The notes under the pieces were generated by a model that was not told the DNA's origin, made no database searches, and saw only the letters and a list, made by a program, of their open reading frames with translations. Position numbers and translations under genes: made by a program. Shown here piece after piece: positions 1 to 39,711 of a stretch of DNA of 64,000 nucleotides (positions within the stretch are counted from its first letter, which is position 1; the number at the start of each line of letters is the position of its first letter). The stretch is taken from NCBI GenBank assembly GCA_003209655.1, contig QCPW01000001.1:186001-250000 (forward strand), read 5' to 3'. Source of the DNA: Prochlorococcus sp. AG-442-M23 (lineage in GTDB: Bacteria; Cyanobacteriota; Cyanobacteriia; PCC-6307; Cyanobiaceae).

Positions 1-74
<74 letters not shown>

Positions 75-110
75 AAGGGATGTTTTTTGAGGTAATAAGC
101 ATTATCCTAA

Positions 111-35967: not shown

Positions 35968-36360
35968 TTATTTTTTAAACAAAAAATATTTTGAACCTAA
36001 ATAATTATTTAAGGCCCCTATGAATGTTCCACACAACCAAGAAACCTTATGATCAATGAGTAATTTATTGAGAGAAAAAACTATTAATGACATTTCTAAA
36101 CCTCCTAAAAAATAAATAATGCAGAAAATAAAAAAAGATCGCAATATTTTTTTTTGAGAATTATCTTTAAAAACCCAAATCTTTGCGAAAATAAATGACG
36201 ATAAGAGTCCCGTTGAATATCCAAATACAGAAGCAAAGATTATGTTTTTAAAAATTGAGTAAATTAAGTTATATACAAGAAAATTTATGGATGTTGAAAT
36301 AAACCCTGAAACAATAAATCTAAATATTTGATATTTATTTTCTTTAATTAGTTTTTCCAA
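35968..36360 (-). CDS. GtrA-like membrane protein
   Basis: A 130-residue protein with four hydrophobic segments and the GtrA-family opening RFIVSGFISTSINFLVYNLIY (about 14-34), with a conserved KIWVFKDNS block and NYLGSKYFLFKK at the C-terminus. GtrA proteins are thought to carry undecaprenyl-linked sugars across the membrane for surface polysaccharide. It lies beside an NTF2-like gene and galE on the same strand. It is likely part of a sugar or cell-surface set, which is inference from context. Confidence 0.82.
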   Translation of the reverse strand: MEKLIKENKYQIFRFIVSGFISTSINFLVYNLIYSIFKNIIFASVFGYSTGLLSSFIFAKIWVFKDNSQKKILRSFFIFCIIYFLGGLEMSLIVFSLNKLLIDHKVSWLCGTFIGALNNYLGSKYFLFKK

Positions 36361-36827: not shown

Positions 36828-37874
36828 TTATTTTTTAGGTTTCATGTTTTGATTAAAAACATACCAATTCCAAGCAGTCTTTATTATACTTTCTAAATCT
36901 GGGAATTCTGTTTTCCATAGTAATTCCCTCTTCGCTTTTTCAGGAGAGGAAATAAGTACTGGAGGGTCACCTTGCCTTCTTTCGGATTTAAATATCTTAA
37001 TCTCTTTCCCAGTAACCCTTTTTGCAGTATCTATAACTTCCATTATTGAATATCCTTTACCATTTCCAAGATTGTAAATTGATAAACTTTTATCATTAAG
37101 AATTTTATTTAAAGCTAAAACATGCGCTTTTGCTAAATCACTTACATGTACGTAATCTCTTATACAAGTACCATCAAATGTTGGATAGTCACTGCCATTG
37201 ACCCGTATTGAACCCTCTTCATTAAAAAGAGCTTCAAGTACTAAAGGAATCAAATGTGTTTCTGGATTATGATCTTCACCAATATCCCCATTAATATCTG
37301 CTCCAGCAGCATTAAAATAACGAAGTATAGATACAGGCAGATTATAAGCTTTGTGATAATCAATTAAAATTTTTTCTATCATTAATTTACTCCTGCCATA
37401 AGGAGTAATAGGATTTTGTAGAGTCGTTTCAATTATTGGGATTTCGGTCTCTAAAGGCATACCATATGTCGCACAGGTAGAACTAAAAACAATAGGAATG
37501 GGTTTGGAATTTCTTTTCTTGGAATCATCTAACAAAGCCTCAAGAAGAGTGATGGTTTCTGCTAAGTTATTTTTGTAATATTTAGCAGGATTAATAACAG
37601 ATTCACCAACATACGTGTAAGCAGCAAAATGCATAATGCCTTTTATATCTTTACCTCTGGTTGAGGAATGTTCACCTGAAAGCAGTTTTTGTAGAAGTTG
37701 CTTGTCTCCAACTTGACCAATAACTAAAGGAACTCCTAAAACATTTTCGACAATTTTTCTATGGCCATAAACTAAATTATCTAGTACAACTGGTTCAAAG
37801 CCTGCATTCTGAAGTTCCCTAATAGCATGAGAACCTATATATCCTGCACCTCCGGCAACTATTACAATAGACAT
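36828..37874 (-). CDS. galE: UDP-glucose 4-epimerase
   Basis: A 348-residue short-chain dehydrogenase/reductase that interconverts UDP-glucose and UDP-galactose, feeding surface polysaccharide or glycolipid synthesis. The NAD Rossmann motif GGAGYIGSH is at 8-16. The catalytic Tyr159 and Lys163 are in TPYGRSKLM, with serine in FSSTCATYG (130-138). The extended C-domain motif RYFNAAGAD is present. It belongs with the GtrA-like and NTF2-like genes in the same orientation. Confidence 0.94.
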   Translation of the reverse strand: MSIVIVAGGAGYIGSHAIRELQNAGFEPVVLDNLVYGHRKIVENVLGVPLVIGQVGDKQLLQKLLSGEHSSTRGKDIKGIMHFAAYTYVGESVINPAKYYKNNLAETITLLEALLDDSKKRNSKPIPIVFSSTCATYGMPLETEIPIIETTLQNPITPYGRSKLMIEKILIDYHKAYNLPVSILRYFNAAGADINGDIGEDHNPETHLIPLVLEALFNEEGSIRVNGSDYPTFDGTCIRDYVHVSDLAKAHVLALNKILNDKSLSIYNLGNGKGYSIMEVIDTAKRVTGKEIKIFKSERRQGDPPVLISSPEKAKRELLWKTEFPDLESIIKTAWNWYVFNQNMKPKK

Positions 37875-38229
37875 ATATCAAACAATCTTTAAAATCATTT
37901 TCAAGAAAGCATATGATGAAGTCGACCTCTCGACATTCTTCTTAGAAAGGAAGCTAAGCATTCTTTAAAATATAAGTCATAGCAATGATTCTCACAAATA
38001 TAATTACAAAATGTAACCGTAATAGTAAAACTCTTCGTACAGAACCCAATTTGTATATTATGTAATCTTACCTTAGCCATATCAGTCAAACTGACTATTC
38101 TTTTAATTATACTGAGTATCACAAATTAGTGAATATAATTTAATCAAACAATTGACTAAACCATAAAGTTTAAACACGATAAACTACTTTTAAAAATGAA
38201 AGTTTTACAAAATCACTTGTCATAAAAAA
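37875..38229. other. gene-poor interval with a tRNA-like remnant
   Basis: This 355-bp gap between galE (minus) and the SGNH-like gene (plus) carries the degraded tRNA 3' half listed separately. The remainder is A/T-rich with no convincing gene. A 73-residue minus-strand frame across it overlaps the tRNA remnant and shows no protein-like features. A 5-bp inverted repeat (TCAGT-CAA-ACTGA at 38082-38094) is too short to call. Confidence 0.7.
37915..37951 (-). pseudogene. degraded tRNA-Gly 3' half (attachment-site-like remnant)
   Basis: Positions 37915-37951 align with 39644-39684 of the intact tRNA-Gly in the same orientation: 33 of 37 aligned bases match, with one 4-nt deletion in the T-arm. 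A 13-nt exact block (37927-37939 and 39660-39672) and GATGAAG (37915-37921 and 39644-39650) are identical. The match covers the anticodon arm, variable region, T-arm and part of the acceptor 3' strand, and ends before the D-arm. No complete cloverleaf can form. Confidence 0.8.
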
Positions 38230-39405
38230 ATGGTTAAAAAAATTTTTTATTTTTTATTCCTTATATTTTGGCTAGAAACGATAAGTTTGTTTGCATTGTT
38301 ATTTTTATCTAAACGATTACCTAACGTAGTGTTTGATCCTAAAAATTATAATTTCAATTTAAAATCTTCGAAAAAAAATTTTAGTGACCCATTGGGATGG
38401 GGTAGTGAAAAATTAAAAGAATCAACAACCATTCCTACTAAGGAATGTAGAGTCCATATGTTTGGAGATTCATTTATATCGTTTAACCCCTACAAATTAG
38501 TTGAATATCAAAATGAATTTATATCTCCAGAAAATCTTATTAGCAGAAAAACAGGTTGTAAAATATATAATTACGGAGTTGATGGTTATGGCTCTGATCA
38601 GGCCTTTTTAAAGTTTAAAGATCAAATTAAAAAAAACAATATACTACCTAATGACGTAGTGATTCTAAGTCACTTAACAGAAAATATCTTACGCAATTCT
38701 ACTAGAAATCTTAGATTGTTATACCCAGATTCGTCAGCGGCTTCAACAAGTCTAAAACCAAAACTAATTTTAAAAAATGGAGAATTATCGGTGATTTCTA
38801 TTCCTGAAAGTTTATCCAAAAGAGAAGTTGCAGAAATTAACCAAAAAGGAGTTACTACTAAAACTAAAAAAGAAGAAAACTCTTTATTCATTTCAAATGC
38901 TGTTAAGGGATCTCCTTCTGAGGTGAAATTTCCTTATACATTGAATCTTGTCAAAGCCTTTTTTTCATGGCACCTTGTACCAAGATTCCATGGAGAAGAA
39001 AAATGGTATCCTTTTTATCGTGAGAGTTCAATTCATTACATAGTAACCAAAAAAATATTAAAAGAATTTCATACTACAAGTATTAAAAATGGTTATAGGT
39101 CTATTACTTTAGATTTACCACTTGCAAATGACTTCAATAAATTTTTTAAATCAAATCAGAATAATTTCCCTTTAACTAAATACTTAAAGAGCATTAATTT
39201 AAATCATCATTCTTTTGGACATTACTTAGCAAAGTATCACCCAGTTGTTTTAAAAAATAAGTGTATTTTTTATGATGGAAGCAATGATGGAGGAGATGTC
39301 TGCAAATTTCATTTCAATCAAAAAGGTTATATTTTGATGATTAATTTTATAAGTGAATTAATAAATAATTTCTCTAATGAAACAAAGCTAAAAACCCTTA
39401 AATAA
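38230..39405 (+). CDS. membrane-anchored SGNH-hydrolase-like protein
   Basis: A 391-residue protein that I place in the SGNH/GDSL hydrolase-like fold. An N-terminal hydrophobic segment (about 6-27) is a signal anchor. Candidate blocks are HMFGDSFISF (nucleophile Ser81), NYGVDGYGSDQ (114-124, block II Gly), SHLTENILRN (Asn152, block III) and DVCKFHFNQKGY (Asp356 and His361, block V). The large middle region is unique. Such anchored SGNH proteins often act as O-acyltransferase/esterase partners on surface polysaccharide. It lies between the tRNA remnant and tRNA-Gly with no obvious Shine-Dalgarno. Confidence 0.72.
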   Translation: MVKKIFYFLFLIFWLETISLFALLFLSKRLPNVVFDPKNYNFNLKSSKKNFSDPLGWGSEKLKESTTIPTKECRVHMFGDSFISFNPYKLVEYQNEFISPENLISRKTGCKIYNYGVDGYGSDQAFLKFKDQIKKNNILPNDVVILSHLTENILRNSTRNLRLLYPDSSAASTSLKPKLILKNGELSVISIPESLSKREVAEINQKGVTTKTKKEENSLFISNAVKGSPSEVKFPYTLNLVKAFFSWHLVPRFHGEEKWYPFYRESSIHYIVTKKILKEFHTTSIKNGYRSITLDLPLANDFNKFFKSNQNNFPLTKYLKSINLNHHSFGHYLAKYHPVVLKNKCIFYDGSNDGGDVCKFHFNQKGYILMINFISELINNFSNETKLKTLK

Positions 39406-39479
39406 TAATCCACTTTTTTTGCTATTTAGCTAATTTAAATCAAGCATATTTCTTAATTTATACTCATTTATTTCTCTGA

Positions 39480-39578
39480 ATGAAAAACGAGTTTTTAAAG
39501 TATGAATCTGATCTTCCGCTCATCGATAAAAGGATAAGAAAGAGATATGAGTGCAGAATTGATATTATGCATTTATAA
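39480..39578 (+). other. possible 32-residue small ORF
   Basis: An ATG at 39480 opens a 32-codon frame beginning MKNEFLKYESDL, charged and without a membrane segment. It lies between the SGNH-like gene and tRNA-Gly. Nothing recognisable and no ribosome-binding site is seen, so it may be random. Confidence 0.2.
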
Positions 39579-39639
39579 ACAATTTTTTAGAAATGTCTCA
39601 AACCTATAAAAAACCCCATCTAAAACAGTGATTCAGGGA

Positions 39640-39711
39640 AGCGGATGAAGAGATTCGAACTCTCGACATTCTCCTTGGCAAGGAGATGCTCTACCACTGA
39701 GCTACATCCGC
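39640..39711 (-). tRNA. trnG: tRNA-Gly (anticodon GCC)
   Basis: The reverse complement folds with acceptor GCGGATG/CATCCGC, discriminator U (usual for bacterial tRNA-Gly), a D-arm containing GTAGCTCAGTGGTAGAGC, anticodon stem TCTCC/GGAGA with loop TTGCCAA (anticodon GCC) and T-arm GAGAG-TTCGAAT-CTCTT. CCA is not encoded. Its 3' end faces the SGNH-like gene and the tRNA remnant. Confidence 0.97.

Follow-up and report, generated by a model that had tools for sequence, protein, structure and literature searches.

The window analysed here, a stretch of 64,000 nucleotides from Prochlorococcus sp. AG-442-M23, contains an intact tRNA-Gly(GCC) gene and, on the 3' side of that gene, a worn copy of its 3' half, with 1.7 kb separating the two repeats. 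The interval between them carries a single long ORF and is bordered on the host side by galE (Table 1). In most of the relatives read, the usual order at this place is secA, a GNAT gene, a SnoaL-like gene, a spacer of about 45 bp, tRNA-Gly and ribH. galE looks like an older, clade-limited layer between the SnoaL-like gene and the tRNA, found in the window and in genomes G135, G023, G095, G078 and G143. A 339-aa gene accompanies galE in G135, G023 and G068 and is missing from the window. A GtrA-like gene, at 35968-36360 of the window between the GNAT and SnoaL-like genes, is present, partial or undetected across relatives. At the left edge of the window (1-75) there is a tRNA-like stretch in which ARAGORN does not report a tRNA, followed at about 110-400 by what looks, from its motifs, like RNase P RNA.

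Table 1. Features at the tRNA-Gly locus of AG-442-M23, with positions in the window.
Feature	Position	Strand	Basis or remark
galE	36828-37874	minus	host-side neighbour; marks the empty site in 5 relatives
Host flank, galE to remnant	37875-37907	no strand	resembles galE-tRNA spacer of G135, G023 and G095
Remnant, read as displaced original tRNA 3' end (far att repeat)	37908-37951	minus	36/45 columns identical; in the register of the tRNA 3' end at empty sites
Far end (arm), homologous to end of integrase-bearing G041 element	37966-38132	plus	Smith-Waterman 116 vs maximum 53 (300 shuffles); nhmmer E 4.8e-6
AAGTCATAGCAA within far arm	37974-37985	plus	
Cargo gene encoding 391 aa with a hydrophobic N-terminal stretch; SGNH/GDSL-like and lineage-specific	38230-39405	plus	ORF list, Pfam, searches for relatives
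tRNA-proximal arm, homologous to integrase-bearing elements, integrase gene absent	39545-39639	plus	nhmmer E 1.3e-13; Smith-Waterman 121 vs G215
22-nt arm-like motif AGTGCAGAATTGATATTATGCA	39550-39571	plus	identical to five integrase-bearing elements bar the pattern's one free position
Intact tRNA-Gly(GCC)	39640-39711	minus	ARAGORN; Rfam RF00005 tRNA, 74.7 bits

The remnant aligns best, locally, with the last 45 nt of the tRNA from the tRNA's last base onward: 36 columns are identical, 8 are mismatched and there is one 1-nt gap. With a score of 51, this alignment exceeded all of 1000 dinucleotide shuffles of the 1.77-kb interval (mean 20.2, maximum 32). An earlier note on this DNA had described the remnant of the tRNA-Gly 3' half as a match of 33 of 37 bases at 37915-37951 with a 4-nt deletion; the match is real, and its exact block of 13 nt can be seen in the sequence at 37927-37939, while the best alignment is the longer one with the single-nucleotide gap. 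Elsewhere in the window, the tRNA aside, a score of 51 was reached at one place, the tRNA-like stretch near 3-72. When the AG-442-M23 genome was searched with tRNA-Gly, the gene itself and the remnant (83% over 39 nt) came up, together with one further place, on contig C4, that matches in part at 76%.

To place the remnant, the same site was compared across the genus. The 142 loci came from the listed tRNA matches (near relatives, genomes with extra matches, all 55 full-length matches and part of the further matches listed); seven were left unclassed because their contig lacked the tRNA or the SnoaL-like gene (G193, G240, G061 and two pieces from each of G215 and G114), giving 135 assessable genomes, about half of the 266 of the genus, with one genome per species. 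In G006, whose tRNA carries one mismatch, the tRNA position was assigned manually. We found the site to be empty or near-empty in 107 genomes out of the 135 (the 135 include AG-442-M23), with a SnoaL-tRNA distance of at most 60 bp in 94 genomes and of 100-145 bp in 13; these 13 were scanned for tRNA copies and five were inspected. In five further genomes galE lies beside the tRNA, at 31-33 bp, and the segment is thus absent from 112 of the 135, a state that the earlier note had proposed to look for; no second tRNA-Gly copy was detected in the stretches fetched from genomes without the segment. The 23 occupied sites hold 0.4-15.5 kb.

In the window galE lies 33 bp from the remnant (31 bp in G068), and the DNA between the two is similar to what separates galE from the tRNA in G135, G023 and G095. 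Since both the distance and the spacer are like those of a galE-adjacent tRNA, we take the remnant to be most likely the original 3' end, located where the empty sites place it, and the DNA from the remnant to the intact tRNA is accordingly read as an insertion. Where an outermost remnant could be detected in other islands, the SnoaL-remnant distance is 44-56 bp (44-45 bp in 9 of 11), as compared with SnoaL-tRNA distances of 39-51 bp across the 94 empty sites. A remnant scored above the threshold of 38 in 13 of the 23 occupied sites and below it in the other 10, some of which, uncounted, show a few tRNA-like bases at the expected place.

Integrase-bearing elements, which the earlier note had proposed to look for, occupy the same tRNA-Gly in other genomes. 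In Prochlorococcus scB243_498I20 (G041), a 9.3-kb element encodes a tyrosine recombinase whose ATG lies 129 bp from the tRNA, and its far repeat is identical to the tRNA at 45 of 46 positions. This recombinase matches phage integrase families (PHROG, E 2e-14; PF00589, E 9e-5, below the cut-off). Pfam matches in the element (within G041:C114:55676-75447) comprise a phosphonate-binding protein, an HD protein and an enzyme of the phosphodiesterase family, and further ORFs read as a phosphonate-type ABC transporter; a small protein at its far end resembles a phage family of unknown function. An integrase of 98-100% identity, hereafter type A, occurs in 5 of the 266 genomes (G041, G193, G240, G114 and G215), four times abutting the intact tRNA and once a 46-nt copy of its 3' end; in G215 the reading frame seems to be broken near residue 13. 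More distantly related recombinases are widespread, with matches to the G041 integrase at E 1e-5 in 107 of the 266 genomes.

Both ends of the window's mini-island are homologous to ends of these elements. The tRNA-proximal 130 bp gave Smith-Waterman scores of 107, 121 and 93 against G041, G215 and G068, where the highest of 300 shuffles per comparison reached 43, 39 and 41. The 168 bp beside the remnant scored far above its shuffles against the far end of G041 (Table 1). The nhmmer values in Table 1 were obtained with the window sequence excluded from the profile or query. The far-end homology joins the window with G041, and G041 as query also reaches G215, G114 and, weakly, G256; the far ends of G068 and G171 score within shuffles against the window copy. 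The type-A tRNA-proximal end also borders the tRNA in G068, G249, G255, G259 and, weakly, G256, and G171 is tied to it by blastn and a pairwise score, being absent from the profile list. The motif AGTGCAGAATNGATATTATGCA, with up to two mismatches allowed, occurs once each in 8 of the 266 genomes, exactly in seven and with two mismatches in G259, whereas its backwards control gave no occurrence in any of the 266. It stands 68-80 bp from tRNA-Gly or, in G193, from the 46-nt copy. Five of the eight carriers are those with the cognate integrase, the others being AG-442-M23, G249 and G259, and we read the motif as a putative arm site of the integrase. An element-borne terminator was also considered and not adopted, the hairpin being plausible in G041 (z -1.5) and unsupported in the window copy (z 0.76).

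The remaining islands at this tRNA-Gly are diverse. A 1.1-kb island in G161 carries one methyltransferase-like gene, and both its ends are common to an 11.3-kb island in G043 that has a phage-type primase; a second recombinase region in G193 likewise matches, in part, the far-end stretch of the G161 island. In G193, on contig G193:C20, two integrase-bearing families, type A and the second one, stand in tandem with a perfect 46-nt copy of the tRNA-Gly 3' end at their junction. Two stacked layers are likewise seen on G249:C9; the inner one, of 3.2 kb, has nuclease-like genes and no integrase, and since its far repeat is 45/46 identical to the tRNA and the arm motif is exact, this layer looks recent. 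Possible integrase debris is found in G259, where a 69-residue integrase piece with three stops lies inside the island, and perhaps in G171, which has short, weakly matching N-terminal integrase-like pieces (E 8e-4). A gene reading as a carbamoyltransferase recurs with a small partner as cargo in G029 and G171 (73% DNA identity over 2.26 kb), and the G029 cargo adds an ORF with a GDS motif and no Pfam match. Against the second family, the tRNA-proximal end of the window scored above shuffles for G043 (42 vs 33) but not for G161 (20 vs 44), and so the two families may be distantly related. Because matches to either end family are missing from 11 of the 23 occupied sites, the insertion account does not cover the whole locus.

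AG-442-M23 itself gave no match to the type-A integrase at E 1e-5 anywhere in its assembly. No integrase fragment was found within the mini-island, so that an integrase may, but need not, once have lain in this copy. The genome has two other PF00589 genes, both elsewhere, one of which reads as lying among housekeeping genes. The other is near tRNA-Ser(GCT), outside the window (G000:C1:110000-122000), next to what read as a serine-recombinase-like ORF, small ORFs and a carbamoyltransferase-like gene, with a carbamoyltransferase pair similar to that of G029 and G171; this stretch is likely a second mobile element. Scans of IMG/VR, which detect close relatives only, confirmed neither a relative of the type-A integrase nor, in a ribH-guided search of viral contigs, the site itself. 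When the interval was compared with phage records, 117 matched, and the 20 among the matches listed all lie at the tRNA end of the query.

The 391-aa cargo protein matches the GDSL lipase family PF00657 weakly (E 0.0093; 16.6 bits against a curated cut-off of 23.6). The earlier note had spoken of one SGNH-like gene; a single long ORF is indeed present, and its SGNH assignment stays weak. A close relative of the gene was not found in the 265 other genomes searched. The one distant relative in the genus, a weak one at 29%, is in G101, where the neighbouring sugar-nucleotide and carbamoyltransferase genes read as a surface-glycan cluster. Relatives were likewise not confirmed in phage records or, in scans that detect close relatives only, in GTDB contigs and IMG/VR, and the ORF has no PHROG match at E 0.01. 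A common family of the G029, G101 and window proteins was rejected, as the alignment was unconvincing and phmmer with the window protein found neither of the others. A single-sequence AlphaFold2 model of the protein was unusable (mean pLDDT 36.8). Third-position GC of the gene is 0.20, like that of the host genes here (0.16-0.22), so that its composition gives no sign of a foreign origin. The number of promoter-like sites in the island did not exceed that of shuffles. The ORF is open although the adjacent repeat differs at 8 of 45 columns plus a gap; assuming uniform substitution and a gene that arrived with the element, the chance of a stop-free 391-codon ORF is 2.0e-6 at 18% neutral change and 4.7e-7 at 20%. 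The gene seems to have been kept by selection. The product is read as a putative SGNH-like, probably envelope-associated esterase, for which a role in surface-glycan modification is at most plausible.

Taken together, these data suggest that the mini-island is probably the remains of a mobile element inserted into the tRNA gene. A tRNA-Gly-specific tyrosine-recombinase element would have recombined with the 3' half of tRNA-Gly and brought a new 3' half with it, so that the tRNA stayed whole, while the original 3' half of the host would have been displaced to the far side to decay there as the remnant. The window copy now lacks the integrase and the other element genes, and its two presumed arms flank one gene. 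The integrase may have been lost afterwards, as the debris in sister islands suggests can happen, or may have been supplied by another element, an event that the fresh integrase-less layer in G249 suggests is possible. We are highly confident in the broad form of this reading, namely that an old insertion of the G041-type family, its integrase lost or never carried, has retained both ends together with a single cargo gene and is now a CIME-like relic derived from a tycheposon-type element. The description in the earlier note, a decayed or integrase-less island, is thereby sharpened: both ends are homologous to an integrase-bearing element and the integrase is absent, and 'decayed' fits, yet an integrase-less arrival is possible as well.

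A plain local duplication of the tRNA, with no mobile element involved, would account for a partial repeat taken alone, but the empty sites lie in register, both ends bear arms specific to the element and versions with an integrase stand at the same place, all of which makes it extremely improbable, and we reject it. More weight attaches to the possibility that the island arrived without an integrase, as a small non-autonomous two-armed cassette recombined by another element's integrase in trans, or carried along in cis following tandem integration. An intact type-A integrase is lacking from six islands that have the type-A end and differ in cargo (AG-442-M23, G068, G249, G255, G259 and, weakly, G256), the integrase-less layer of G249 looks recent, and G193 holds two families in tandem at a 46-nt repeat. 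The debris in G259 and perhaps G171, however, points to loss after insertion, such islands vary widely in length and cargo with the ends as their sole common minimal structure, and the far repeat of the window is too worn for dating a loss. We therefore consider this arrival possible but rather unlikely. Its wider form, in which the Prochlorococcus tRNA-Gly would serve as a docking site open to small cassettes that lack an integrase, consist of two arms and one or a few cargo genes, and come and go by means of the integrase of a full element, either co-resident or incoming, is a tentative and still less likely idea; its logic is comparable to that of integron cassette arrays without an integrase (CALINs, as described in an excerpt of PMC11389934).

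The cargo gene might also have come later than the ends, having recombined, homologously or illegitimately, into an island that decay had already emptied. This would agree with the search, in which the integrase-bearing elements yielded no relative of the gene, and with the place of the weak G101 relative in an apparent surface-glycan cluster. The gene nevertheless lies between two element ends, and on non-systematic inspection no second event or further junction was noticed; we regard a later arrival as distinctly improbable.

The significance of the locus is that a one-gene mini-island is tied to an identifiable mobile family through its two ends. By means of such links, islands that lack an integrase can be recognised in streamlined ocean bacteria, and one can test whether these islands are dead or still mobile with integrases borrowed from elsewhere. 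Since in other cells the site holds genes of phosphonate type as well as surface-glycan-like and satellite-like ones, it is a recurrent point of gene gain in Prochlorococcus. The kind of element is known; the site, the family and the set of integrase-less derivatives would be new, subject to the target list of the main tycheposon paper. No title or opening of an abstract on this tRNA-Gly site appeared among the literature matches listed.

The tycheposons of Prochlorococcus, reportedly the subject of Hackl et al. in 2023, carry their own tyrosine recombinase and shared hallmark genes. The mini-island has in common with them the genus and the integration into a tRNA gene with a displaced tRNA 3' fragment, and related integrase-bearing elements at this tRNA bear nutrient-type cargo (the phosphonate-binding protein of G041); another island there has a satellite-like primase (G043). 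It differs in that the window copy has no recombinase of its own, which five related elements do have, and none of its relatives' element genes, its one long ORF being without a PHROG match. Its 1.7 kb between repeats also falls short of the 4-200 kbp that an excerpt of PMC10872708 gives, second-hand, as the size of tycheposons. The mini-island works in the manner of a tycheposon-type element and most likely descends from one without being a member of the class, as it lacks the recombinase and the other element genes. Excerpts of PMC2784084 and PMC8776855 place phage sites at other tRNA genes, tRNA-Met and tRNA-Leu.

Outside this class, the Methylophilaceae island at tRNA-Lys (PMC10872708, in excerpt) is similarly additive, with variable islands preceded by repeats of the tRNA 3' end, but the tRNA and host are others and the repeats are the last 20 nt, as compared with about 46 nt here. 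Dehalococcoides ssrA islands, 15 of which lack an integration module and 16 of which have one according to an excerpt of PMC3146451, share the repeats of an RNA-gene 3' end, the stacking and the many members without an integration module; they use a serine recombinase at tmRNA rather than a tyrosine recombinase at tRNA-Gly. There is also a structural likeness to cis-mobilizable elements (CIMEs), as defined in an excerpt of PMC5704250: the window has no integration or transfer genes and appears to have att sites on both sides, the far copy worn to 36/45, with arms at both ends, while integrase-bearing relatives occupy the site and tandem accretion is seen in G193 and G249. That definition is for decayed conjugative or mobilizable elements, and conjugation genes were not noticed here. 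The mini-island fits the structural definition of a CIME, and the tandem layers in G193 and G249 are consistent with mobilisation by a related element at the same site.
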